From Chromatiales bacterium (lineage in GTDB: Bacteria > Pseudomonadota > Gammaproteobacteria > Steroidobacterales > Woeseiaceae), in contig SHLT01000006.1 in the NCBI GenBank assembly GCA_004282875.1, positions 1 through 49,684 of the forward strand: a stretch of DNA of 49,684 nt. Reading direction: 5' to 3'. This document shows positions 26,049 to 49,684 of the stretch, one piece after another (within the stretch, counting starts at the first letter, position 1; each line of letters opens with the position of its first letter). The translations under genes were made by a program, and so were the position numbers. The notes beneath the pieces were generated by a model, which ran no database searches, had not been told where the DNA came from, and was given only the letters and a program-made list of their open reading frames with translations.

Positions 26049-26663
26049 ATGAACAAGCAACGAAAGATTCTTGCGATCAACGGGTCCTACCGGGCCGGTG
26101 GCGTCACTGACCAGGCGGTCAGCGGCATACTCGACAACCTCAAGGCCCTCGACGTCGACGTGGAGCACATCAAGCTGCGCGACTACCCTGTCGAGTTCTG
26201 CATGAACTGCAGGGAATGCATGCAACAACCCGGGGACAGCCCTGGCCGCTGTGTCCTCAACGACGGCATGGCAGACCTTGTGCAGAAGATCGAAAACGCT
26301 GACGGTTATGTCCTGGCGGCACCCACTAATTTCTCGTCAGTGACCGCGCTGTTCAAGCGTTTCTCCGAGCGGCTTGCTGTGTACGGCTACTGGCCTTGGG
26401 GTAAACCCGCGCCGCAATTTCGCAAGGACAAAATGCCGAAGAAACCCGCCATTATTATCTCGTCCTGCGCCGCGCCCGGTGTCCTTGGCAAGCTCACCTA
26501 TGGAACCAACAGGAATCTCAAGATTGCTGCGAAGACCATTGGCGGCAGAGTCGTCGGGTCGATGGTGACGGGCCTGATGTCACAAGAGCGCGCTCAGCAA
26601 TTACCGCCGCAGGCGCAACGCCGGATCAAAGCGCTGGCACCGAGGTTGCTGCCGAGCCACTAG
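26049..26663 (+). CDS. NADPH-dependent FMN reductase / flavodoxin-fold protein
   Basis: The 204-residue protein opens ILAINGSYRAGGVTDQAV, the GS-x-R-phosphate loop of the flavodoxin-like NAD(P)H:FMN reductases. VLAAPTNFSSVTALFKRFSER gives the second FMN contact (the AxPTYxxxxTA pattern). Cysteines at FCMNCRECMQQ suggest a redox or metal site; CxxC-bearing members are known among the iron-sulfur flavoproteins. A GGAGG site lies 5 bp before ATG 26049. It reduces FMN or quinones, or acts in iron-sulfur chemistry, in the cytoplasm. Its last four bases overlap the convergent pyruvate-kinase-like gene at a shared CTAG. Confidence 0.86.
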   Translation: MNKQRKILAINGSYRAGGVTDQAVSGILDNLKALDVDVEHIKLRDYPVEFCMNCRECMQQPGDSPGRCVLNDGMADLVQKIENADGYVLAAPTNFSSVTALFKRFSERLAVYGYWPWGKPAPQFRKDKMPKKPAIIISSCAAPGVLGKLTYGTNRNLKIAAKTIGGRVVGSMVTGLMSQERAQQLPPQAQRRIKALAPRLLPSH

Positions 26664-28498
26664 TCGTCGCCGGACACGTGCAGCTTGCGCATGCGGGCGG
26701 TCTTCTTGAACTGGTGCGCTTTCATGCGCCGCAGGATGTTGTCGAGCGTGCGAATCGCCGCGAGTATGTGCGGCCCCTTGTTCAGCATCACGCAATCGGC
26801 GCGCTGTGACATGGCTGCATCCGTAATTTCGGCGCGCGACGGGAGTCCGCGTTTCGCCTCCTGCTCCAGTACCTGTGTCGCCCAGATGACCGGCACACGC
26901 GCCGCTTCGCACATCCAGAGTATTTCTTCCTGCAGCTCGGCCAGCCGCTCCCACCCGCACTCGACCGCGAGATCACCGCGCGCAATCATGACCGCAATCG
27001 GGTAGCGCCGCATGGCGCTGAGAATCAGCTGCGGCAGGTTTTTGAAGCCGCGCTTCGTCTCGATCTTGACGATCACGCCGAGCTCGCTCGCGCCCAGGCT
27101 GTCCAGTTCGTTCACGATTTCGTCGATGTCAGCCGTGTCCCGCACAAATGAGAGGCTGACCGCATCGGCGTTCCGGGCAATAAAGGGAAGATGCTGCCGG
27201 TCGGCGGACGTCAGCCCGGCAATGGGAATGTCACTTTTAGGGAAGTTGATGCCCTTGTTGCTGCGCAACGGACTACCTGCGGGCTTCGCTTTGGTGATCT
27301 CGATTTCCGCCTGCTCGTGGTCTGCCGAGATCACGACACCGGAGATCTTGCCGTCGTTGAGCGACACGGGCTCACCGGGCACGAGGTACTGAAACACCTC
27401 GGGCTGCTGGCATGCGATCTTCGCGCATTCGATGATGGCGCCGTCGGGTGCCTCGCTTGCCGGCGTTCCCGGGGCGCCGTCGCCCGTCAGGCGCAGCGTA
27501 TCGCCAACACGCAGCCGCAGCGGACGCTCAATGGCCGGCAACTCGCCGATACGGTAGTCGATTTTCTCCCCGGCCATCGACCGGATCAGCCGTAACCTGG
27601 AGCCTGTCTGGATATAGGCCCCTTTGTGCGCCTCGAGCACAAGGCCTTTCTCGTCTTTTTCGACGACCATTAGCCGGCGTTTCTTGCCGCGCGTGTCCCG
27701 GTAGCGAATTTCATCGCCAACCTGTGCCAGTTCGATGCATTCGTGCGGTACGGGTATGCACGCGGATTTCGTACCGCGCTGTACAAAATCCTCCGGGACC
27801 AGCCGCACGCGGCGCGGTGCAATGATCCGGCCCATCGGGCCGCGGCGAGGCTTGATATGAAGCACTTTGGGCCCGGGCTCGAGCGGCCCGGTACGCAGTT
27901 TCGGACCGCCCAGGTCCATGTTGATCCGGCACTCCGTGTTCGATTCTTTCGCAGCTTTCCGCAGGTTATCGACAATGCGCTGCCAGGTGGCCTCGTCATC
28001 CATCGCGCAGTTGATACGTGCCACGTTCATACCGGCCGCAAGCATCTCGGCAACCAGTTCCTTCTGGTCACCGGCCTCGGTCGGCATGGTGACCATGATG
28101 CTGGCGTCGCGTCCCGGTGGACCGGCACCCAGCAGCGCTTCCTTGTGCCGGCGCGCCACGGCATTGTCCAGGGCGAGTTCCTCCTGCGTGTCTGGCACGA
28201 ATGGCGTGGCCTCACCGCGCAGCGCGCCGAGCGCCGTGGAAACCACCCTGAGCGAACCGAGAACGTTGCGCTCGGAGCGCCCAAGTGACGACAGGCCGAG
28301 ACTGGTTAGCGTTTCCTGGAGGTCGCGTAAATCGGACTGGCGCAGTGCCAGGTAGTGCACGAGATTGCGCGCGCTTTCTCTGAATTGTGGATGCACTGCC
28401 GCGAGTTCATCCGCATGGATCGACTCAAACTCAATAGCCCGGTCGTAGATGCGCTTGAGTTCTGTGCTTGCCCGCTCCATGTCGGCACGGTTGGTCAT
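26660..28498 (-). CDS. Atypical pyruvate kinase-like protein
   Basis: The 612-residue protein has pyruvate kinase catalytic motifs: MDLGGPKLRTG (194-204), VKIE (Lys478, Glu480), MIARGDLAVE (504-513) and WATQVLE (Thr541). The usual RMNFSHG loop is changed to RINCAMDD (161-168). A 130-residue helical N-terminal extension precedes the barrel, and the B-domain insertion is very long (about 205-380). The usual C-terminal regulatory domain is missing, because the protein ends about 35 residues after MLNKG. It probably transfers phosphate between PEP or a similar enol phosphate and ADP without the allosteric domain. A second cytoplasmic role is possible. GGGAGG precedes ATG 28498. Confidence 0.87.
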   Translation of the reverse strand: MTNRADMERASTELKRIYDRAIEFESIHADELAAVHPQFRESARNLVHYLALRQSDLRDLQETLTSLGLSSLGRSERNVLGSLRVVSTALGALRGEATPFVPDTQEELALDNAVARRHKEALLGAGPPGRDASIMVTMPTEAGDQKELVAEMLAAGMNVARINCAMDDEATWQRIVDNLRKAAKESNTECRINMDLGGPKLRTGPLEPGPKVLHIKPRRGPMGRIIAPRRVRLVPEDFVQRGTKSACIPVPHECIELAQVGDEIRYRDTRGKKRRLMVVEKDEKGLVLEAHKGAYIQTGSRLRLIRSMAGEKIDYRIGELPAIERPLRLRVGDTLRLTGDGAPGTPASEAPDGAIIECAKIACQQPEVFQYLVPGEPVSLNDGKISGVVISADHEQAEIEITKAKPAGSPLRSNKGINFPKSDIPIAGLTSADRQHLPFIARNADAVSLSFVRDTADIDEIVNELDSLGASELGVIVKIETKRGFKNLPQLILSAMRRYPIAVMIARGDLAVECGWERLAELQEEILWMCEAARVPVIWATQVLEQEAKRGLPSRAEITDAAMSQRADCVMLNKGPHILAAIRTLDNILRRMKAHQFKKTARMRKLHVSGDD

Positions 28499-33492: not shown

Positions 33493-34734
33493 CTATTTGT
33501 GCTTCAGCACCCGGATCGTTCGCCGTGCCCGAGCGCGCCTGAGGTCTCCGAGGTTCTTCATACGCATCGTGTCGGACGCCTGCACCTCTTCTTCCATTTC
33601 CGCGCTCAGTGCCGGAACGTTTTCCACTTTGATCTTGTAGTGCCCGAGCGTGATGATGTCGTTCGAGCGCAGCACCGTCTTTTGCACCATGCGGGAATTC
33701 ACCGATGTGCCATTGGTGCTGTTCAGGTCGATCAGCATGACCGCGTTGCCATAGACCTTGAGCATCGCATGCACTTTGCTGATGTACGTGTCCTCGATCA
33801 CGATATCGGCGAGATCGCTGCGGCCAATGACATACTCGTGCTTGGTCAGGTCGTAGCTGGCCAGTGTCCTGCCATCGCGCGTCACGTGCAGGCTCGGTAC
33901 CTGTTGTGAAGGCGCCTGTCGTGCCAGGCCATCCGCTACCGCAATTGCACAGGAATTTAACGACCCCGGCCAACCGCCCGATACCTCGTGCAGGCGCGCA
34001 CAGACGTCAAGCGAGAAGGCGTCTTCACCGTCGTTGCGCCCGGCCGCAATCCAGCGCGTGCGCAGGTAGCTGACCGTCTCCTGTTCGGTGAGCGGATTCA
34101 GGGAATACAAGGCCGGGTGGCGACGCGCAAGGTGGCGCATCCCGTGGTCGTTGACGAGGCTGAGCAGGCGGTCCTGGCCCGCCAGCAGCAGTCGCAGGCC
34201 GAAGCGGTCGCGCGACTCGAGCGCGGCCAGCCAATTCAGAAGCCGCAGGACGCTCGAGGACGCCTTGTCGACATCGTCGATAATCAGTACCGGCGTCTCC
34301 CCGGCAAGGGCTTTTTCTGTCAGGAATGCGCTCAGACGCTGCAGCAGGCGCTGGTCATCGTCGAGTGGCGGCACATCGATCCCGAACTGCTCAAGCATGA
34401 TCTTCACGAGCGATCGGGGCGTCAGCTGTTCACCCTCCACCATGGCCACGGCGCTGTCGCGGGCCAATGCGGCGAACTGCTCCCTGAGCGTAGTGCTCTT
34501 GCCGGACCCGCTGGGACCGCGCAGCAGCGCGACGCCGTTGCCGCGCCCCAGGGCCGCCGTGAGAAAGCGCAACGCGTCCTGGTGTGACTGGTACGCGACA
34601 ATGAGCCCGGGATCGGCGAGGTCGCCGAAAGCCTTGCTGCTCAATGCTGAATCGTATGCCTGCATAGTTCTTATAATTGTAGTCGCCCGTTTATTATTGC
34701 GCTTCTGATTGTTTCTGCGGGGGCGAGATTCCAT
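33493..34734 (-). CDS. ExeA-type AAA ATPase fused to a C-terminal FHA domain (paralog 1)
   Basis: The 413-residue protein has an ExeA/GspA-like ATPase with Walker A GPSGSGKST (73-81) and Walker B VLIIDDVD (149-156). An FHA domain of about residues 281-371 follows with the phosphothreonine-binding marks: IGRSD, YISKVHAML and NSTNGTSVN. ATPase plus FHA implies an ATP-driven machine whose assembly is controlled by Ser/Thr phosphorylation; ExeA proteins usually help secretion or envelope assembly. The start at 34734 is chosen because GGGAG lies 7 bp upstream; ATG 34665 is an alternative. It lies divergent from a methyltransferase-like gene. A degenerate paralog is found at 37442-38686. Confidence 0.88.
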   Translation of the reverse strand: MESRPRRNNQKRNNKRATTIIRTMQAYDSALSSKAFGDLADPGLIVAYQSHQDALRFLTAALGRGNGVALLRGPSGSGKSTTLREQFAALARDSAVAMVEGEQLTPRSLVKIMLEQFGIDVPPLDDDQRLLQRLSAFLTEKALAGETPVLIIDDVDKASSSVLRLLNWLAALESRDRFGLRLLLAGQDRLLSLVNDHGMRHLARRHPALYSLNPLTEQETVSYLRTRWIAAGRNDGEDAFSLDVCARLHEVSGGWPGSLNSCAIAVADGLARQAPSQQVPSLHVTRDGRTLASYDLTKHEYVIGRSDLADIVIEDTYISKVHAMLKVYGNAVMLIDLNSTNGTSVNSRMVQKTVLRSNDIITLGHYKIKVENVPALSAEMEEEVQASDTMRMKNLGDLRRARARRTIRVLKHK

Positions 34735-34808
34735 AATACGCTCCCTCAGCCGGTAATAGCGCCGCAAACTGCCGGTTTCCCGTCCCAAATCGCACCCAGG
34801 AGTCACCC

Positions 34809-36497: not shown

Positions 36498-37454
36498 TCA
36501 GGTCGCGGGTGCCTCAAAGTCTACCGTAGCGAGCTCACCTGTGACTATCGTTGCGGGCTTGCCGTCTTCGGGCTCGAAACTGTCACCATCGCAGGTGAAC
36601 GCCGCTTCATACTCGCCCGCCAGCAGGAAACCGACCGTGTAATGCCACTGCACGGTGCCATCATCCTGGTCCTGAGCCTCAACCAGCGCGGTCGCCACCG
36701 GGTCGTCCGGGTCCACGATTTCATCATCAATGCCATTCGGCATGACGCCATCATTGAATACGTAGACAGACGGCTGGCAAGCCTCCGCCTCGGCGAGAGC
36801 ATTCGCAACCTGCCCGGTCAGCGTGCCAACCTCGTTGTTGTCGACCAGCTTGATCGTCGGGCGCAACTTCACGTCAGGCGCTTGACCGGGCGGCGCCGTG
36901 ATGGACTTGCCGAGATCGAACTCGGCCGTCAGGCTGACCTGGTCATTGACCGGCACGGTGTAGCCGTTGACCAGTTTCAGGCCCGTGTTCTCACCGCTCG
37001 GGACGTACAGGTTATAAACGGAATCGTCATTCATGACGATGTAAGACGCATCGCCATCGCACACATCAGGGTTACCCGTGTCGCCAACGCCACCGTTGCT
37101 GCCGCGTACGGCATCGACGCCAAGACGCATCCATGCGTATTGCCCGGCGGGCAGCCGCTCGCTGGTCAGAATCGGCATCGCGTTCGCGCCCTGGAACTTC
37201 AGGAGGTCGATCTTTTCGGCTGCCGCCAGCGTGATCAGCGTCGACGGACCTTCGACCGGCTTCAACTCAATATCGGTAAAGGATACGCAAACCTTTTTCG
37301 CGTCATGAATCGGCGCATCGCTGATACCCAGAGTCAGGAAGCCGAAGCTCTGCTCAGCGGCGTCGCCACTTCCACTTCCGCCACCGCAGCCGGCCAGTGC
37401 GACCAGTGTCATGGTAAGTAAGGTAAACGTGATTCTCTTATTCATGATTTCCAT
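36498..37454 (-). CDS. DUF4382 lipoprotein
   Basis: The 318-residue protein has a lipoprotein signal (MTLVALAGCGGG, lipid Cys23) followed by FLTLGISDAPIHDAKKVCVSFTDIEL, the beginning of a DUF4382 domain. Other marks are INLLKFQG-like IDLLKFQGANA and LPAGQYAWMRLGVDA. DUF4382 domains are beta-rich, exported and of unknown function. The start at 37454 has GGAAG 7 bp upstream; an ATG three codons later overlaps the upstream gene's TGA in an ATGA arrangement. It follows the second FHA-ATPase and precedes yceH in a tight minus-strand cluster, so it may be a partner of the ATPase. Confidence 0.88.
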   Translation of the reverse strand: MEIMNKRITFTLLTMTLVALAGCGGGSGSGDAAEQSFGFLTLGISDAPIHDAKKVCVSFTDIELKPVEGPSTLITLAAAEKIDLLKFQGANAMPILTSERLPAGQYAWMRLGVDAVRGSNGGVGDTGNPDVCDGDASYIVMNDDSVYNLYVPSGENTGLKLVNGYTVPVNDQVSLTAEFDLGKSITAPPGQAPDVKLRPTIKLVDNNEVGTLTGQVANALAEAEACQPSVYVFNDGVMPNGIDDEIVDPDDPVATALVEAQDQDDGTVQWHYTVGFLLAGEYEAAFTCDGDSFEPEDGKPATIVTGELATVDFEAPAT

Positions 37455-38686
37455 TTCTGTTCTTCCGCGGGCCGGCGAAGATGCTCATCCTTGCGCGCGC
37501 GCCGCGCATCCTCGATCGTCATCATCTTCGTCGTGTCGGCCTCTTCGAGACCAAAATCCGACGTCATGGTGAAGCTCGCCGGCAACACGACCTTGATGCG
37601 AAAATCGCCGAGCGCAATGATGTCGTTGTTGCGCAGTATCTGGCTCGAGACCTTCTTCGAGTTGACGTAGGAACCGTTGCGGCTCTTCAGGTCAACGAGG
37701 AACAGCGAACCCTCTGACTGCACCAGCATGGCGTGTTGCTTGCTGATGTACTGGTTCTCGATAACGATGTCACTGAGGTCCGACCGACCAATGATGGTCC
37801 GCATCGCGGCAACGCTTGCTTCCTGTACCACCTCGCCATTGTGCGAAATGATCAGCTGCGGCGGCTCCGGCTCCACGAAATCGTCCAGCACCGGCACGTG
37901 CTCCTCTTCGCGGACCTTCTCGAACGTGCTGAAGAGTTCGTTCGACTCCAGTTCGCTGAAGGTCTCTGTCCCCACAGGGAATTCATTTCTCTTTTTCAAG
38001 ACAGCGTCAGCAATACAATCCAGGTTGCCCGGCCAGCCGCCCGTCGCCATGTGCAGGGACTCCGTAATGTCACGCGAGATCGCACTGTCGGGATTCCGAA
38101 CGCCGTTCGCTTTGAGTCTTGCGAATAAATAGATGAGCGACTCGCGCGCGGTCAGCGGCTGCATTTCGAACGCACCCGTCAGGCGAATGGATATCGGCAG
38201 CATCCTCGGCGAATCGATAACGCGCCGGAAATAGCGATCGCCTACAAGAATAATGCGTATCGCAAAGCGCTTCTGGACCGTCAGCTGTGCCAGCTTGCAC
38301 AGCACGCCCAGCGCGCTGGGCAGCATATGATTGAAATGCTCGAGAACCAGCACCGGCGCATCGCGCGACTGTGCCTGCTGCACAGCGAACACATTGATCA
38401 TGTTCAGCAACTCGTCTACTGAACTCAGTTCGAGCTCATAGCCAAATTGCGTAAGCATGGCATTCAGAAACGCCGTCGGTTTGAGATGTGTACCGTCAAC
38501 GACAGCAACGGCCGCGCGCTCGCGCATCTTCTGCGCGATCTGTTCGATCAGCTCTGACTTACCGGCGACGTCCGGCCCGTGAAGCAGGCCGAGCCCTTTT
38601 GAATCCGCAAGCACGCCCTCAAGGAAGCTGAAAGCCTCCTGTTGCGAAGGATACTGTATGAATGCCGAATGGCGTTCGTGTTCCAC
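37442..38686 (-). CDS. ExeA-type ATPase-like protein with FHA domain, degenerate Walker B (paralog 2)
   Basis: The 414-residue protein has the same layout as the one at 33493-34734. It has an intact P-loop GPDVAGKS (37-44), but the Walker B strand reads VLVLEHF (112-118), with Glu replacing the first Asp and no DD pair. The C-terminal FHA domain is well conserved: IGRSDLSDIVIENQYISK and DLKSRNGSYVN. ATP may be bound but hydrolysis is probably weak, suggesting a regulatory or pseudo-ATPase subunit for paralog 1. It lies at the head of a three-gene minus-strand cluster with the DUF4382 lipoprotein and yceH. No clear ribosome site precedes ATG 38686. Confidence 0.87.
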   Translation of the reverse strand: MEHERHSAFIQYPSQQEAFSFLEGVLADSKGLGLLHGPDVAGKSELIEQIAQKMRERAAVAVVDGTHLKPTAFLNAMLTQFGYELELSSVDELLNMINVFAVQQAQSRDAPVLVLEHFNHMLPSALGVLCKLAQLTVQKRFAIRIILVGDRYFRRVIDSPRMLPISIRLTGAFEMQPLTARESLIYLFARLKANGVRNPDSAISRDITESLHMATGGWPGNLDCIADAVLKKRNEFPVGTETFSELESNELFSTFEKVREEEHVPVLDDFVEPEPPQLIISHNGEVVQEASVAAMRTIIGRSDLSDIVIENQYISKQHAMLVQSEGSLFLVDLKSRNGSYVNSKKVSSQILRNNDIIALGDFRIKVVLPASFTMTSDFGLEEADTTKMMTIEDARRARKDEHLRRPAEEQKWKS

Positions 38687-39470: not shown

Positions 39471-42400
39471 ATGGACAATTTGTACCCGCCAGGCCCCGCC
39501 CCGGTCGCCCAGGACCTGACTGCCCCGGGCCCGGCCTACAAGCGGCAGGCCAAAGTCGCGCTGCTAAGCCTCCTCTTGTTTATAGCGCTGTATCTCTCGC
39601 TGACGGGTTGGTTCGCCTGGACCGCGTACGACTATTTCGTCAATGCGGCAGCCGTTGAGCAAGGCGCCTGGGTCGGCTACGGGTTCGCCGCCGCGGCAGC
39701 TTTTCTCACCATTTTCCTCACGAAGGCCCTGTTCTTCGTCAATCGTGGCGGTGAAGTCAACGATATCGAGGTGACGGCGGAGGAGGAACCGCAACTCTTC
39801 GAGTTCCTGCATCGGCTCGCCGACGAGGCCGGTGCCCCCCGGCCGCACCGGGTATTCCTGTCCGGCCGCGTCAACGCGGCGGTATTCTACGACCTGACGC
39901 TCCTGAACCTGATCTTTCCGTCAAAGAAAAACCTCGAGATCGGCCTGGCCCTCGTCAACGGCCTCAACCTGGGTGAGTTCAAAGCCGTCCTCGCGCACGA
40001 GTTCGGGCATTTCCGGCAGGGCTCGATGGCCGTCGGACGCTGGGTGTATGTTGCGCAACAGATCGCGACGCACATTATCTACCAGCGCGATATCCTCGAT
40101 CGTTTCCTCGTTGGCCTGTCCAGCATCGACATACGCATCGCCTGGATCGGCTGGTTGTTGCGCCTCATCGTCTGGGCGCTGCGCGCTTTACTCGATAGCG
40201 CGTTCAGCCTCGTCGTACTCGCACAGCGATCCCTCTCTCGAGAAATGGAATTCCATGCCGATATGGTGTCGGTCTCCCTGACAGGAAGCGACGCGCTCGT
40301 ACACGCACTGCATCGACTGGGCGCTGCGGACGACGCCTGGGATCGGGCCCTGGGCTTCGCCGGCCAGGAACTCGCCGCCGGTCGCGCCGTCTCGGACATC
40401 TTCGTTATCCAGAAGATCGTCACCCAACGCATGAAGGACATTCTTGACGACGAAAACTACGACTGCCCGCCGCCCCTGCCGGAAGGCGACCGCGAAAGTC
40501 ACCGGGTATTCGACGCGGAAGACGCGCAACCACCGAAAATGTGGTCGACGCATCCACCCAATCACGACCGCGAGAACAACGCCAAGAAGCAGTACATCCA
40601 GGCGGACATCGATGAGCGCCCTGCCTGGGACGTATTCAAGAATCCGCAGCAGCTGCGCGAACGCATGACCGAACACCTGCTGAGCCAGGGACCCGATGCA
40701 CCGCAGCTGCAGAAGTCGCCCGTGACCGAGTCCGTGTCGCTCGTGACGCAGCAGTACACCAAGAAGATTTTCGACCGGCGCTACCGCGGCAGTTACATGG
40801 GTCGCTCGGTCGTGCGCGAGTTCGCGAGCGCCGACGAAGCCATCGCTCCCGTCGATCCTGCCCTGTCGGTAGAACAGCAGTTCGCCACGCTATATCCCGC
40901 GGACCTCTCGGAGCAGTTCGAGCACTGGCGCAACCTCGAACAGGAAAAGGAAACGCTGCGTGCACTGCGCGACGGCCTGCTGGAGCCACCCGACGGAATC
41001 ATCCGGCATCGTGGCGTCATCCTGAAACGCAAGGAGCTGCCCGAGGCGATCGAGGAAACACGCGCGGAATGCGACGAGGCTCGTCGGCAGCTATGCGAGC
41101 ACGATCGCAAAGTCCGTGGCGTGCACAACGCGGCCGCGGCGCGTCTGGGCAGTGACTGGCAGGCGTATCACACGGGCCTGGTACGGCTGCTGCACTATGC
41201 GGACCACTCATCCGCCAACCTCGCGGACGTCCAGGGCCGCCTTGCCAATCTCTGGGCCGTCGTCACGGCCGATGGCAAGATAAGCAGCGGCGAGGTCAAG
41301 CAATTACTGGCCGTCGCAGAGGACCTCTATGCGGTGCTGGCAAGTATCAACACCGCCACGCCCGACCTGCGGTTGTCCAGCGATATTGCCAGGGACCTCG
41401 GCGTGGACAGCTGGGGCGCGCTGCTCAAGGAAGACTTCAACCTGCCCGCACCGAGCAAAGACAACCTCGGCGACTGGCTTGGCGCGGCCGAAGGCTGGAT
41501 GGGCTACTACCAGAATGCGCTGGGTGCGCTCCAGGCCGAGACGCTCGAAGCGCTGCTGGCCGCGGAGGCCAGCATCGAAACTGCAGCAACGGGCGGAACG
41601 AATCCGGGGCCGGCACCCTCCGCGGCCGGCGTTCCCGCGCAATATCCAGTCCTGCTGCCCAACACCGAGCGTAAGTTGCAGCGACGCCTCGGTCTCTGGG
41701 ACCGTTTCCAGACGGCGACCGGATTCTTCCCTGCCCTCGCGCGGTTTGGCGTAGCGACGACCATCGTCGGCGGCCTGCTGGGTGCCGGCATGTACACATC
41801 GAGCGGCGCAGACATCACCGTCTATAACGGTCTCGCCACGGCGGTCACGGTCACTGCACTCGATGAATCGGTTGCGGTCGCGCCGCTGAGCTCGGCCGAG
41901 TTGTCTGTCAACACCTCGCCAGACCTCGTCATCGAAACACACACTCGCGACGGCATGCTTGTCGAAACGCTCGAGGTCGATGCGTCAAATTCGTTCAGCG
42001 CCTACGTCTACAACGTCGCCAGCGCGATGCCGCTCGTGCGTTGGAAAGCCGTGTATGGCTCAACCGGGGAGTCGCCGCCGGAATATCTCGGCGCCAGGTC
42101 CTGGCTCACCGCCAATGTCGATCACGTGTTCGAGGAACCGCCCGAGTCGATCAATACCTCCGGCAGTGGCGGTTCACGGTCGGTACTGAGTGCATTTCCC
42201 GACGTTGACCCACGCTACCTCGAGGACTATTTCCCGGGTGGCGATGTGAACGACGAAACGATTCTCAGCCACGCGCAGTGGGATCATCCCAATGCGCCCT
42301 ACACGACCCTCTGGATGTCGCTGGCGACCAATACCGAGCACTTCGACGAGGTGCTTGCGCGGCGCCTGCAGCGCAATCCTGACGAAGTACTCGCCTTGCG

Positions 42401-43292
42401 CTACGAACAAGACATGGCGGCATCGGATGAAAGCCGCGCTGCGGTCTGCGAGCGCCATACGGCGCAGGCGGCCGCTCTGCCGGACGACTCAAACTGGCAG
42501 TACCTCGCCAGCCGCTGCGTTGCACACGCCGAACCATCCTCGACGCCCTTCCTGAGCCTGTACGCGATATCGCCAGACAACCCCTGGGTGGCCGGCGCAG
42601 CGGGCTACGAGTTTGCCGAAACCGGACAATGGGAACGTGCCATCGCCGCCTGGGAGTCCGCCTACGAGGCCAATGCCGCTATGCGCGTCGTGTATGCCGA
42701 TGAAATCGCGCGCGCCCGGCGCATGGCACAGGGAACCAGCGCGGACTTCTCCGATGTCGCGTCAATGACGCCTTGGCTGCAAATGCAGGCAATGCTGCTG
42801 AGCGGCGAAACAGAGAGCGCACCCGGGCTTGCCCCCTACCAGCTGCTGCTGCAGGGCGACCCCGAAGGCGCTGTTGCCGAGGCGCAGGCAAGCAATGGGC
42901 TGAGCGATGAACTGCTGCGCATGGCCGCCGCGTCGGACGGGGCCAGCGATGCGATAATCGCGGCCGCGCTGGAACTGGCACCCGACCAGGGAATTAGCCG
43001 GGACTCAATCTGGACCGCGATTGGCTTCGCCATGCGGCACGGCGATTCGATCGATGAGTATCTCGACAACGCCGATGCAATTCTGGGCTCGGATGCAGCC
43101 GTAGCTCGCGAGTTCTTCGCGAGTTTGCCGAACGTTAGAGCGGCAGAGGACGTCCTGCGCGGGGCTCGCTCGAGCACGCGGGGCGCCGCTTACGCGGCCG
43201 GTGTCGTCGCATTGGGTGACCGGGCGCCGTCAGCATGGCGTGAAGGTGCGAAGCGCCTGCTGTTCGTGACAGAGCGGCCCTATTTGAGATAG
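39471..43292 (+). CDS. Very large membrane M48-family metalloprotease with TerB-like and TPR-like regions
   Basis: The 1273-residue protein has two N-terminal membrane helices (about residues 29-55 and 67-90). The zinc motif HEFGH is at 176-180 and the third ligand is Glu260 in REMEFHAD, which is standard M48 (HtpX/Ste24-type) architecture. A further hydrophobic pair lies at 225-250. A long cytoplasmic region with helical repeats follows, including VTADGKISSGEV near 590 that resembles a TerB-type motif. A third membrane segment near 755-775 is followed by about 500 residues of presumably periplasmic TPR-like sequence. HtpX-type proteases handle damaged membrane proteins; this one has a large added part, so a special client set is likely. 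AGGAG precedes ATG 39471. Confidence 0.9.
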   Translation: MDNLYPPGPAPVAQDLTAPGPAYKRQAKVALLSLLLFIALYLSLTGWFAWTAYDYFVNAAAVEQGAWVGYGFAAAAAFLTIFLTKALFFVNRGGEVNDIEVTAEEEPQLFEFLHRLADEAGAPRPHRVFLSGRVNAAVFYDLTLLNLIFPSKKNLEIGLALVNGLNLGEFKAVLAHEFGHFRQGSMAVGRWVYVAQQIATHIIYQRDILDRFLVGLSSIDIRIAWIGWLLRLIVWALRALLDSAFSLVVLAQRSLSREMEFHADMVSVSLTGSDALVHALHRLGAADDAWDRALGFAGQELAAGRAVSDIFVIQKIVTQRMKDILDDENYDCPPPLPEGDRESHRVFDAEDAQPPKMWSTHPPNHDRENNAKKQYIQADIDERPAWDVFKNPQQLRERMTEHLLSQGPDAPQLQKSPVTESVSLVTQQYTKKIFDRRYRGSYMGRSVVREFASADEAIAPVDPALSVEQQFATLYPADLSEQFEHWRNLEQEKETLRALRDGLLEPPDGIIRHRGVILKRKELPEAIEETRAECDEARRQLCEHDRKVRGVHNAAAARLGSDWQAYHTGLVRLLHYADHSSANLADVQGRLANLWAVVTADGKISSGEVKQLLAVAEDLYAVLASINTATPDLRLSSDIARDLGVDSWGALLKEDFNLPAPSKDNLGDWLGAAEGWMGYYQNALGALQAETLEALLAAEASIETAATGGTNPGPAPSAAGVPAQYPVLLPNTERKLQRRLGLWDRFQTATGFFPALARFGVATTIVGGLLGAGMYTSSGADITVYNGLATAVTVTALDESVAVAPLSSAELSVNTSPDLVIETHTRDGMLVETLEVDASNSFSAYVYNVASAMPLVRWKAVYGSTGESPPEYLGARSWLTANVDHVFEEPPESINTSGSGGSRSVLSAFPDVDPRYLEDYFPGGDVNDETILSHAQWDHPNAPYTTLWMSLATNTEHFDEVLARRLQRNPDEVLALRYEQDMAASDESRAAVCERHTAQAAALPDDSNWQYLASRCVAHAEPSSTPFLSLYAISPDNPWVAGAAGYEFAETGQWERAIAAWESAYEANAAMRVVYADEIARARRMAQGTSADFSDVASMTPWLQMQAMLLSGETESAPGLAPYQLLLQGDPEGAVAEAQASNGLSDELLRMAAASDGASDAIIAAALELAPDQGISRDSIWTAIGFAMRHGDSIDEYLDNADAILGSDAAVAREFFASLPNVRAAEDVLRGARSSTRGAAYAAGVVALGDRAPSAWREGAKRLLFVTERPYLR

Positions 43293-45828: not shown

Positions 45829-45902
45829 GCGGGTGTAGTTCAACGGTAGAACATCAGCTTCCCAAGCTGAGAATGAGGGTTCGATTCCCTTCACCCGCTC
45901 CA
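45829..45902 (+). tRNA. tRNA-Gly (anticodon CCC)
   Basis: This 74-base cloverleaf includes a coded CCA end. The acceptor stem GCGGGTG (45829-45835) pairs with CACCCGC (45892-45898) before discriminator T and CCA (45900-45902). The anticodon stem TCAGC/GCTGA encloses the loop TTCCCAA, so the anticodon is CCC and it reads the GGG codon. GGGTTCGATTCCC is a normal T arm. The sequence closely resembles enterobacterial glyU from memory. It is a single tRNA, not part of a cluster, and it stands in a gap of its own. Such genes are common integration sites, but no attachment repeat is visible nearby. Confidence 0.97.
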
Positions 45903-45992: not shown

Positions 45993-48320
45993 ATGCTCCC
46001 TAGAATTGCCTTGGTTTTGCTCCTGTGTATTGCCGCGCCGGTTGCGGCGCAACAGACGTTCGTCGTGGCCGTGGTCGGTGACGGGGCCGGCGACCGGCTG
46101 TCGGATCAGCAGCAAAAATACGTTGACGAACTGCTGGCGCTGACGGCCAGTGAGTTCGACGTCCAGGTTCGCCGCTTCACCGGTGCCTGGACGCGTGCGA
46201 CGATTGTCGGGGCAATCGATCAGGCCTATGCCGACCCGGACGTCGACCTGGTTCTGGTGACAGGTATTGTTGCCAACCAGCTGGCGGCGACAAGACGTGA
46301 GTTTCCCAAGCCGACGTTTCTTCCGGTCATTCTCGACATTGGGCTGTTGGGCAGCAACGAGAGCGCAGCCGCACCCGGCACAGCCAACCTTAATTACCTG
46401 ACCGCGTATGCCGACTTCGACAGTGACCTCGATATTCTTGCGAGGATTACGCCCTACCGGACCGTCGTCCTCATCGTCGATGTCGCCATTTCGTCGGCAA
46501 TCCCGCAGCTGCGTGATGCCGCTTACGCAATAAGCGCGGAGAAAGGCGCGGAGTTAGTCTATATCACGCATGACGGCGAGGATCACGATCTGGTAAGAAG
46601 CGTTCCGTCAAACGCCGACGCGGTCTTTGTCGCCGCGCTACCGCGCATGCCGGCGGACGGGTTTCAACGCCTGGTCGATGCGATCAATGCGGCTGACCTG
46701 CCAAGTTACAGCTTCATGGGCGTCACCGATGTCGAACGGGGCCTGCTGGCAACGAACACTGAACCGCGGGATATCGATCGGCAGGCGCGACTCAACGCCC
46801 TGAACATGCAGGCGGTCATGCTTGGCGGCCGGGCCGAGGATCAGCCCACCGGCTCCGGCAGTCGTGAAAAACTGACGATCAATATGGCAACGGCTCGCGA
46901 GATCGGCCTGTCGGTGAGTTTCGATGTGATGGGTGATGCGGTCCTGCTGAACCAGGAGGTTGCAGCAACCGGGCAGGAATATGGTCTTGTCGAAATTGCT
47001 CGGCTTGCGTTGCAGCAGAACCAGGACCTCAGGGCGGAAGCTTTCGGCGTGCAGGCGGGCATCCAGGAAATTAGCGGTGCGCGGTCCAACCTGTTACCGC
47101 AAGTCGGTTTTTCCACGACTTACTCGCAGCGCAAGGATTCCCCGTCGGTCACGGCCGGCCTGTTCGCCGAGCAGTCGACGGATGCGGCCATCAGCCTGAA
47201 CCAGCTCATTTATTCCGACGCCGCCAGCGCGAACCTGGCAATTCAGAAGCAGCTGCAGGAGACGCGCGAGGCCGGTTTCGCCGAGTTTCAACTCGACGTG
47301 ATTCTGGCAGCCACAACGTCGTACTACACGGTTCTGAATGCACGTTCGCAGCTCGCCGTGCAGGAAAACAACCTCAACATCACGCGCGCGAACCTGGAGC
47401 TGGCCGAAGATCGCGTGCGGCTGGGTACATCGACGCCCGCCGATGTCTACCGCTGGCAGGCAGAAGCCGCAAGGGCACAGATACTGGTCATGAATACGCG
47501 GGCTGCGCTCAATCAGTCGTGGGACACGCTTAATCGTATTCTGCACCGGCCACAAGGCACGCGTCTTGCGCTGCGTGAGGCAAGTTTCGACGAACCGTTT
47601 GTGATGACGCGGGGTGACTTCGACGAGCTGGTGAAAAACCCGTCCGACTATGCTGTCTTCTCGCGATTCTACGTCGACCGCGCGTTGTCGCAGGCTCCGG
47701 AACTGCGTCAGCTCGACGCGCAAATCGCAGCCAAACGCCGCGAACTCGTCAGCTTTCGGCGGGCCTACTGGTTGCCGGAGTTTAGTGTCGGCGCGCAGTA
47801 CCTGAGCAACATGAGTCAGTCGGGTGTCGGTGCCGGGCCGCAGGCAGGCGAGGATCTGGACGACTGGAGCATCGGTGTACAGGCGACCTTACCGCTATTT
47901 TCGGGCGGCCAGAAAAAGGCCAACGCCTCACGTGCCAGTTACGAGTTGCGGCAACTCGAAGTACTGCGCGTTGCGACGGAAGAACGCGTCGAGGAAGCCG
48001 TCCGCCTGCAACTGCACGCGACACAGGCCGCCTATGTGCAGATTGACCTGGCTGCCACGGCGGCGGAAGCCTCGCGCAAGAACTTCGACCTGGTCAGCGA
48101 CGCCTACGCGCGCGGCAACGTGACCGTGATTGAGTTGCTGGATGCGCAGGATACAAGCCTGGTGGCTTCGGCTTCGGCCGCCGAGTCGCTGTACAGCTTT
48201 TTGATTACGATCATGGGCTTACAGCGCTCGGTGGGCGGCTATGACTACCTCCTTGGCCCTGCGGACCGCGAGGCGCTGGCTGACGAGTTTCGCAGGACCT
48301 TGACGGGAACACGACAATGA
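45993..48320 (+). CDS. Outer-membrane efflux protein (TolC family) with N-terminal ABC substrate-binding-like domain
   Basis: The 775-residue protein has a signal peptide (ALVLLLCIAAPVAAQ), then about 290 residues resembling an ABC substrate-binding (PF04392-type) fold: FVVAVVGDGAG, DVDLVLVTGIVANQLAA, KPTFLPVILDI, ADAVFVAALPRMP. The rest (about 320-775) is TolC-like, with two similar halves, long helices (LNITRANLELAEDRVRLGTSTPADVYRWQAEA), FSVGAQYLS barrel strands and AYARGNVTVIELLDAQ. TolC is usually about 430 residues, so the 330 extra residues are a genuine fusion. ATG 45993 is taken because the signal starts there. It overlaps the adaptor gene by 4 bp (ATGA at 48317). Confidence 0.9.
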   Translation: MLPRIALVLLLCIAAPVAAQQTFVVAVVGDGAGDRLSDQQQKYVDELLALTASEFDVQVRRFTGAWTRATIVGAIDQAYADPDVDLVLVTGIVANQLAATRREFPKPTFLPVILDIGLLGSNESAAAPGTANLNYLTAYADFDSDLDILARITPYRTVVLIVDVAISSAIPQLRDAAYAISAEKGAELVYITHDGEDHDLVRSVPSNADAVFVAALPRMPADGFQRLVDAINAADLPSYSFMGVTDVERGLLATNTEPRDIDRQARLNALNMQAVMLGGRAEDQPTGSGSREKLTINMATAREIGLSVSFDVMGDAVLLNQEVAATGQEYGLVEIARLALQQNQDLRAEAFGVQAGIQEISGARSNLLPQVGFSTTYSQRKDSPSVTAGLFAEQSTDAAISLNQLIYSDAASANLAIQKQLQETREAGFAEFQLDVILAATTSYYTVLNARSQLAVQENNLNITRANLELAEDRVRLGTSTPADVYRWQAEAARAQILVMNTRAALNQSWDTLNRILHRPQGTRLALREASFDEPFVMTRGDFDELVKNPSDYAVFSRFYVDRALSQAPELRQLDAQIAAKRRELVSFRRAYWLPEFSVGAQYLSNMSQSGVGAGPQAGEDLDDWSIGVQATLPLFSGGQKKANASRASYELRQLEVLRVATEERVEEAVRLQLHATQAAYVQIDLAATAAEASRKNFDLVSDAYARGNVTVIELLDAQDTSLVASASAAESLYSFLITIMGLQRSVGGYDYLLGPADREALADEFRRTLTGTRQ

Positions 48321-49408
48321 ACAAGTGCTTGGTACTACTACTGTTTACCGCCCTCCTCGTCACGGCGTGCGGCGAGTCTTCCGACGTTGTGGAGGAACGC
48401 TTGCGCCCGGTTCGCTACCTCACGATCACCGATAGCGACGGTTTCCGGGATCGGAGTTTTTCCGGCACGTCGAAGTCGAGTCGCGAATCGCGTCTGAGTT
48501 TCAAGATCTCCGGCACCGTTGTGGACGTTCCAGTGCAAATAGGACAGCGGCTCGATGCCGGTGACCTGATTGCCCGAATCGACCCCGCAAGCTATGAATT
48601 GCAGGCCCAGCAGGCGCAGGCCGCGCGCGTCGAGGCGCAGGCCAACGATCGTCGAGCGGCCGCCAACTATGATCGGACCAAAGGGCTGTATGCCAATGAC
48701 AATGCGTCATTGAATGACCTCGAGTCGGCACGGGCGCAGGCTGAATCTGCACAGGCGGTGGTGGCGTCGGCGACCAAGGCGCTCGAAATCGCACGGCTCA
48801 ATGTTTCTTACACGCAGCTCTCCGCCGATACGGCCTGCTCGATTGCGTCTCTCGACGTGGAAGTTAACGAGAATGTTTCGTCCGGGCAGCAGGTTGCCGT
48901 CGTCAGCTGCGGTGACGAGTTCGAGGTCACTGTCGATCTTCCCGAGAGCCTGATTGGCAATGTGAACAAGGACACGCGCGTCAGCCTTCGATTCGGCGCG
49001 ATCCCCGACGCGGTCTTTGCGGGCGAAATTACCGAGGTGGCCGTCGCGTCGGCATCGGGGTCCGCTGCGTTCCCGGTCGTAATCCGGGTGCTCGACAGTC
49101 ATCCGTCGCTGCGTTCCGGCCTGGCCGCCGACGTGACGTTTCAGTTCGACTCGGGCGCCGCGCAGGGCGCGATCGTGCTTCCCGTTACCGCCGTGATCAA
49201 CCGTCCGGAAGGCACATCGGTGTTCGTCGCCGAGCGTTCCGAGGTAGAGGGTGAGTCCGTCGTGCGTCGCCGCGCCGTCACTCTTGGCGAGCTGACCCAG
49301 TCCGGAATAGAAGTTATCGAGGGTCTCAAGGTCGGTGACCGCGTCATCACCGCCGGCATATCGGTCATACGCGATGGCCAGCGCGTGCTGACGACCGAAA
49401 GCCGATAG
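48317..49408 (+). CDS. RND efflux periplasmic adaptor (membrane fusion protein), lipoprotein
   Basis: The 363-residue protein has a lipoprotein signal (LLVTACGES, lipid Cys18). An adaptor fold follows: SGTSKSSRESRLSFKISG, then VPVQIGQRLDAGDLIARIDP (lipoyl half). The helical hairpin region is LYANDNASLNDLESARAQ..., and the second lipoyl half carries NVSYTQLSADTACSI. The beta-barrel and membrane-proximal domains (VTVDLPESLIGNV, AIVLPVTAVINRPEGTSVFVA) complete it. It links the inner-membrane RND pump to the outer-membrane TolC-like protein. Its start overlaps the upstream stop (ATGA), so the operon is translationally coupled. Confidence 0.94.
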   Translation: MNKCLVLLLFTALLVTACGESSDVVEERLRPVRYLTITDSDGFRDRSFSGTSKSSRESRLSFKISGTVVDVPVQIGQRLDAGDLIARIDPASYELQAQQAQAARVEAQANDRRAAANYDRTKGLYANDNASLNDLESARAQAESAQAVVASATKALEIARLNVSYTQLSADTACSIASLDVEVNENVSSGQQVAVVSCGDEFEVTVDLPESLIGNVNKDTRVSLRFGAIPDAVFAGEITEVAVASASGSAAFPVVIRVLDSHPSLRSGLAADVTFQFDSGAAQGAIVLPVTAVINRPEGTSVFVAERSEVEGESVVRRRAVTLGELTQSGIEVIEGLKVGDRVITAGISVIRDGQRVLTTESR

Positions 49409-49422
49409 AGGCCGCGCTCGCT

Positions 49423-49684
49423 ATGAATCTCACTGGCGTTGCGATCAACAAAAACCGGATCACGCTGACGATCGTCGCACTGGCCGTGATTGCGGGAATC
49501 GTTGCATACGGCACCCTGCCCAAGGCACAGGACCCGGGCTTCACTGTCCGTACGGCCGTCATCACGACGCGCTTCCCTGGCGCAAGCCCCGAGCGTGTGG
49601 AGCTGCTCGTTACGGACAAGATCGAAAAAAAGATCCAGGAGATGCCGGAAATCGACTCGATCACGAGCGAGTCGCGAACCGGGA
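49423..49684 (+). CDS. RND efflux permease, N-terminal fragment (runs off window)
   Basis: From ATG 49423 the frame reads MNLTGVAINKNRITLTIV, the first membrane helix of RND pumps. It continues AYGTLPKAQDPGFTVRTAVI and FPGASPERVELLVTDKIE, the conserved start of the porter domain. Only 87 residues are in the window. It lies 14 bp after the adaptor gene and completes a three-gene tripartite efflux operon in the order outer-membrane protein, adaptor, pump. Substrates cannot be told from this part. Confidence 0.94.
   Translation, partial: MNLTGVAINKNRITLTIVALAVIAGIVAYGTLPKAQDPGFTVRTAVITTRFPGASPERVELLVTDKIEKKIQEMPEIDSITSESRTG

Follow-up and report, generated by a model that had tools for sequence, protein, structure and literature searches.

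What does a domain related to periplasmic substrate-binding proteins (SBPs) do in front of a TolC-type channel, a class of outer-membrane protein usually viewed as a duct opened by its adaptor? One gene on a 49,684-nt stretch of DNA from a Chromatiales bacterium (contig SHLT01000006.1, from position 1; this whole stretch is hereafter the window) raises this question. An original prediction, made from the letters alone, had placed a PF04392-type domain of ~290 residues ahead of a full TolC in the first gene of an RND efflux operon, and had suggested that it could sense or capture a ligand or gate the channel. The relevant features are:

45993..48320 (+), fused outer-membrane factor, SBP-like domain plus TolC-type channel, 775 aa, uninterrupted frame
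45993..46049 (+), probable signal peptide, residues 1-19, judged by eye from the sequence
46050..46949 (+), binding-protein-like domain, residues ~20-318, homologue of ABC_sub_bind (PF04392) by hhalign and profile searches
46938..47021 (+), junction A316 to N343, from an alignment of 84 sequences
46965..48242 (+), TolC-type channel, residues ~325-750, by PF02321 and alignment to E. coli TolC
48317..49408 (+), RND periplasmic adaptor (HlyD/RND_mfp), 363 aa, by TIGR01730 and PF13437
49423..49684 (+), RND pump, first 87 residues up to the window end, by match to the pumps of relatives

The reading frame and the PF02321 and TIGR01730 matches bore out the coordinates and the anatomy first proposed, that is, a domain of ~290 residues, a full TolC, an adaptor and an RND pump. 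The sequence also confirmed the two short intergenic features of the prediction: the adaptor start overlaps the stop codon of the fused gene (ATGA), and a 14-bp gap separates the adaptor from the RND frame start at 49423. The most upstream start that the list of open reading frames allows for the fused gene is 45948, which would extend the product to 790 aa. A lipid anchor was rejected for the window protein because it does not match a loose lipobox pattern, to which 14 of 116 fusions conform. The adaptor scored 200 bits with TIGR01730 (cut-off 94.9) and matched PF13437 at E 1.3e-14, and the RND fragment matched a 1031-aa frame of locus L025 (E 3.5e-45), which also encodes the closest relative of the fused protein (76% over the full length). 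The complete pump of another relative, L026, scored 531 bits with PF00873 and fell below the NCBIfam cut-offs for named RND subfamilies (best NF033617, 450 bits vs 1250). Adaptor and RND pump share the operon with the fused gene, as in a tripartite RND system.

The surroundings contain other features. A tRNA-Gly gene (anticodon ccc; window positions 45829-45902, +) lies 90 bases 5' of the fused gene, and in L025 (1661-5901) the fused operon is directly preceded, on its own strand, by a second adaptor-RND pair; no outer-membrane factor (OMF) was recognised between the two or ahead of the pair within the fetched stretch. Farther away in the window are a 612-residue protein (26660-28498, -) with a pyruvate-kinase barrel match best at residues 359-573; a 1273-residue protein (39471-43292, +) whose sole Pfam match is an M48 peptidase domain close to the start; and a pair of similar proteins in which an AAA domain precedes an FHA domain (33493-34806 and 37442-38686, both -), the latter adjoining a DUF4382 protein (36498-37454).

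To what extent is the N-terminal part a binding-protein domain? PF04392 found nothing in the window protein even at E 10, thus not reaching the Pfam gathering score, and a six-frame search of the whole genome from which the window derives gave no match either. NCBIfam returned a single weak match on the N-terminal part, ABC_SBP_TrpX at 0.0053, which points in the right direction. Profile comparisons were far more telling. A profile built from 39 diverged N-terminal parts (A3) matched the PDB chains 3lkv (3.7e-9), 3lft (6.4e-5) and 6hni (4.5e-4), and hhalign of this profile against an alignment of 14 free-standing SBPs (A5) yielded a probability of 99.4% (E 2.9e-21, 293 columns), with 0.1-0.3% in seven controls (one reversed, five column-shuffled and one TolC alignment). 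A free-SBP profile hit the window's genome at a single site, the second half of the N-domain (E 1.2e-6), and neither it nor PF04392 revealed another PF04392-like protein in this assembly, which is 86% complete. Direct matches do occur in some relatives: the fusion of Desulfoluna limicola (L244) exceeds the Pfam cut-off for PF04392 (34.9 vs 25.9 bits) and also carries PF02321, PF04392 was seen in one of nine further fusions (18.0 bits, under the cut-off), and six of 22 N-domains scanned alone matched it at E up to 1, the best at 1e-6. Among the precomputed domains of the 120 relatives listed by a protein search, PF04392 appears in none. A resemblance to V-ATPase subunit F (ATP-synt_F) was set aside, being weak and confined to ~50-90 residues, as opposed to an SBP match over the whole domain. 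On these profile comparisons the N-terminal domain is homologous to class I binding proteins along its full length. The PF04392 label originally given thus stands as remote homology and not as a direct Pfam match on the window protein. The fusion was perhaps overlooked because Pfam recognises the TolC half alone in most of the members examined.

The other half proved straightforward. PF02321 matched the window protein at E 5.5e-46 (157 bits vs 22) in two stretches that correspond to both repeats, so that profiling the two parts separately, as first proposed, returned an SBP relative on one side and a TolC on the other. Residues 3-406 of the E. coli TolC chain align to residues 332-749, a result repeated with the TolC part alone; the E. 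coli TolC chains in the PDB were hit at E 1.7e-14, and ten more listed sequences below 1e-13. Judging from the alignment to E. coli TolC, this part would form a trimeric outer-membrane barrel.

We then asked how far the fusion extends. Of 8000 protein candidates scored against the N-terminal part, 492 matched at E 1e-3; the 120 matches listed, the window's own included, show 61-100% identity, and 106 of these relatives (query excluded) are 750-799 aa long. Within the genus, 14 of 36 genomes encode the full fusion; the other 22, many of them incomplete, lack a full-length copy, though one gives a partial match. Seven of 23 genomes of the same order have it, in one case split across contig ends (L016/L017). 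A class sample (369 genomes, own included) contained 21 with a strong N-domain match (E below 1e-30), fused to TolC in 20. The exception, L068 (7421-9321), shows an N-domain with no TolC and an overlapping frame for the end of an RND pump, an arrangement that is either a deletion or an assembly join. In a phylum sample (398 genomes, own included) only the own genome gave a strong match, the next best (7.3e-17) being frames of free-SBP size. The family is thus spread widely but unevenly.

Public genome contigs, when scanned, yielded 309 confirmed relatives, of which the best 80 are all fused. These 80 loci, a majority of which come from metagenome bins whose binning we took as given, fall, judged by record title, into Pseudomonadota (48), Thermodesulfobacteriota (18), Nitrospirota (3), Gemmatimonadota, Myxococcota and Acidobacteriota (2 each) and Nitrospinota (1), with four unassigned; some bins contribute several loci, and some contigs coincide with loci from the other genome samples. 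Named strains with the fusion are Porticoccus sp. W117, Desulfuromonas sp. CSMB_57, Desulfoluna limicola ASN36 and Desulfosarcina alkanivorans PL12, and in both D. limicola and D. alkanivorans it lies on a complete chromosome. Full-text searching of open-licence PMC papers found no description of an SBP-TolC fusion; the one paper that contains both PF04392 and PF02321, PMC7565204, gives them for different Burkholderia proteins. From its sequence record, the two-domain protein is a real, old and widespread family, apparently unnamed.

For phylogeny, 114 fused proteins of at least 750 aa with a near-complete N-domain were thinned to 84 by shared 6-mers, the split L016/L017 gene and L068 being left aside. 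In quick trees with long branches, the 84 fused N-domains fell on one side of a branch (SH-aLRT 99) from 46 further SBP domains (39 free-standing and seven belonging to sensors), and the TolC parts likewise formed one clade (SH-aLRT 99) apart from 19 ordinary OMFs from seven genomes. The nearest free relatives in the tree are PF04392 proteins of 383-409 aa (L087:8176-10646, L088:7204-8391 and L090:6330-7523), L087 carrying two such genes in tandem. The alignment further uncovered a junction of nearly invariant length: from A316, where the SBP part has its final conserved alanine, to N343, where TolC has its first conserved asparagine, the distance is 27 residues in 83 of the 84 proteins and 26 in the other, while other stretches measured in the same sequences span length ranges of 2 to 12 residues. 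Since a domain on a loose tether ought to differ in this spacing from protein to protein, the constant length suggests a fixed geometry. Both halves appear to be under similar constraint, with purifying selection indicated by dN/dS values of 0.06-0.27 over 12 pairs (one TolC value undefined), ratios that are rough because dS exceeds 1 in many pairs; mean column entropy was 2.12 bits in the N-domain and 1.95 in TolC.

The genetic neighbourhood turned out to be less uniform than proposed. As anticipated, the fusion recurs beside RND genes, a pump being encoded on the same strand at 52 of the best 80 loci. At 14 others, however, the engine is an exporter of the RbbA/ABC-2 type, which does away with an exclusive RND pairing and with the claim of a fixed place, as does the position of the fusion, upstream of the RND pump in 46 of the 52 loci and downstream in six. 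An exporter of either kind is therefore present at 66 of the 80. Ten of the remaining loci have short flanks and four have ample flanks with no same-strand engine, three of them (L169, L178 and L183) with an RND gene on the opposite strand and one (L163) with none. The ABC gene set, of the type of E. coli rbbA-yhhJ-yhiI, comprises an adaptor, RbbA and an ABC-2 permease, the contig ending before the full set at a few loci; RbbA (NF033858) scored 1481-1522 bits against a cut-off of 1050 in four checked loci. Twelve of the 14 ABC loci have the fusion downstream, and the remaining two, one from a Thiotrichales bin and one from a Nitrospira bin, have it first. Compact clusters of adaptor, ABC-2 permease, RbbA and fused TolC occur at L069:919-8243, L145:2084-9328, L154:2481-9719 and L176:1814-9205.

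On the trees, three changes of engine are needed among the fused members, and constraining the ABC-paired members to a single clade, a test run after the N-domain tree had been inspected, was rejected (log-likelihood 317.5 lower, p-AU 7.9e-6). No other unlabelled gene family recurs within the fetched flanks at more than six of the 84 thinned loci. Stray ABC-ATPase-like frames were noted in the flanks of L150, L173, L187 and L189. A role in import was rejected, as no importer gene family recurs beside the operon, the window carries an exporter, and the PF04392 and free-SBP profiles turned up no second protein of this kind in the 86% complete assembly. The pairing of the fusion with two engine types is a new finding here, and these two engines, together with the three changes, argue that the extra domain belongs with the channel and not with one pump or an importer.

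Does the domain still bind a ligand? Both SBP lobes are retained at full length, and five residues, D30, G91, G250, R266 and N297, are invariant in all 84 fused N-domains. R266 also occurs outside the fusions, 15 of 36 free SBPs having R there, and the fusions no longer carry the T-G motif of free SBPs, 81 of 84 having Y at the G position. In a comparison with SBP rows, in which many free rows are gapped and the sensor rows, all gapped, were not used, the positions common to the fusions and most ungapped free SBPs were P107, D115, G250, G278, N297 and A316. According to PMC6816091, two positions set specificity in binders of Phe, Tyr and Trp. Mapped by hand, they correspond to G243, a glycine in 71 of the 84, and I261, where 63 of the 84 have W, L, F, V or I. 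On this mapping, these residues neither match nor exclude these amino acids as ligands and so decide nothing. PF04392 domains above cut-off also stand at the front of seven other large proteins with PAS, GAF, histidine-kinase or GGDEF-EAL parts (L229, L239, L241, L242, L245, L246 and L247), which, from this domain make-up, are probably sensors.

Taken together, sensing is supported by the two preserved lobes, the five invariant residues and the presence of PF04392 domains in probable sensors, and is weakened by the lost T-G motif, by R266 not being specific to fusions and by the location of the sensor-type domains elsewhere in the tree. Because RND- and ABC-paired members have the invariant residues in common, what the domain binds or contacts is probably a feature common to these envelopes rather than the cargo of the pump.

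Where the domain sits bears on what it could do. According to a review (PMC8277102), the lipid anchor at the N-terminus of OprM emerges from the equatorial domain, a belt that encircles the periplasmic barrel at mid-height. YbjP attaches to the equatorial domain of TolC with 3:3 stoichiometry and remains there when TolC opens (PMC13095208). PMC13082787 describes YbjP as dispensable for E. coli efflux under laboratory conditions and suggests a chaperone-like role for it. As the TolC chain starts at the equatorial region in published structures, we infer that three SBP domains would ring the trimer outside the tunnel. Direct feeding of substrate is unlikely because the domains would sit outside the tunnel at about equatorial height, which leaves support or allosteric sensing as the options.

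The reading that we prefer, with a probability of about 0.42, is that of a periplasmic collar, stiffly mounted near the equatorial belt, which would respond to a ligand and modulate docking or opening. The two lobes of the N-domain would open and close on a periplasmic ligand, this movement would pass through the stiff junction to the first TolC helix and the equatorial belt, and a change in the belt could modulate adaptor docking or channel opening. We also considered a bolder, rather unlikely version, in which the fusion is a ligand-gated exit duct whose three domains read a common envelope molecule, for example a fragment of the cell wall where it meets the equatorial belt in height, and permit channel opening whatever motor has docked. 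If that were true, the outer membrane, and not solely the inner-membrane pump, would exert control over export.

Nearly as likely as the ligand-responsive collar is a purely structural one, in which a non-binding SBP fold would stiffen the equatorial belt or hold the channel in position within the outer membrane and cell wall. YbjP, retained on the opened TolC in the same place, may offer a precedent, and since it is dispensable for efflux in the laboratory, a collar on TolC need not gate. The constant junction would suit a rigid spacer as well as a sensor, and the loss of the T-G motif fits a fold that no longer binds. What seems to exceed the needs of a spacer is the retention of full-length lobes and of five residues invariant in 84 of 84 sequences.

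Capture of the pump substrate in the periplasm and its transfer to the adaptor or pump is improbable. Binding proteins capture substrate for importers, and an exporter is indeed encoded beside the gene at most of the best 80 loci, as counted above; yet the domain would be mounted at the start of the TolC chain, which in published structures is equatorial, external to the sealed tunnel and distant from the pump, and one domain family serves two unrelated motors. Given the short, constant junction that sets the domain there, capture looks the least likely of the three roles first put forward, that is, sensing, capture and gating. Still more doubtful is an assembly aid with no transport role, a domain that would ease the passage of the channel through the periplasm, its trimerisation or its docking to the assembly machinery, as the chaperone-like role suggested for YbjP might hint, for the ordinary TolC proteins encoded in the same genomes (six genomes) do without it. 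An artefact, be it a gene-call error, a frameshift or an assembly join of two genes, can be dismissed despite the draft state of the genome (210 contigs) and the recognition of TolC alone by Pfam, because the recurrence is too wide, with close relatives in genus and order and two complete chromosomes among the independent genomes, the junction too constant, and both halves evolve under apparent purifying selection.

Comparison with known systems helps to place the fused protein. With the PF04392 SBPs SP1069 (3lft, Trp), VC_1101 (3lkv, Phe) and CD0873 (6hni, Tyr), the fusion is homologous across the whole domain, but it adds a TolC channel, has lost the T-G motif and lacks recurring importer genes. 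It shares with TolC both complete PF02321 repeats, alignable to the E. coli protein along their length, and differs by the ~300-residue domain before the channel and by TolC parts that form a clade apart from the ordinary OMFs. The E. coli YbjP-TolC complex (9V52, 9V53) likewise has a globular periplasmic domain at the equatorial region, the position that we infer for the fusion; whereas YbjP is a separate lipoprotein (DUF3828), the domain of the fusion is covalent and SBP-like, and the Pfam matches of the window protein, which has no lipobox match, do not include DUF3828. Sensor kinases and GGDEF-EAL proteins with PF04392 use a domain of the same superfamily outside import, but they signal into the cytoplasm and their domains occupy another part of the tree. 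As for the RbbA-type ABC-2 set, the fused channel adjoins an RbbA-like ATPase-permease or an ABC-2 permease at the 14 loci mentioned, whereas the window locus has an RND pump.

These observations place RbbA, annotated in NCBIfam as a ribosome-associated ATPase/putative transporter, in a complete export gene set with adaptor, permease and channel. For the family as a whole, the persistence of a covalently attached binding-protein-like domain while the motor changes would, in the named strains too, make the control or positioning of the channel at the outer membrane directly testable.
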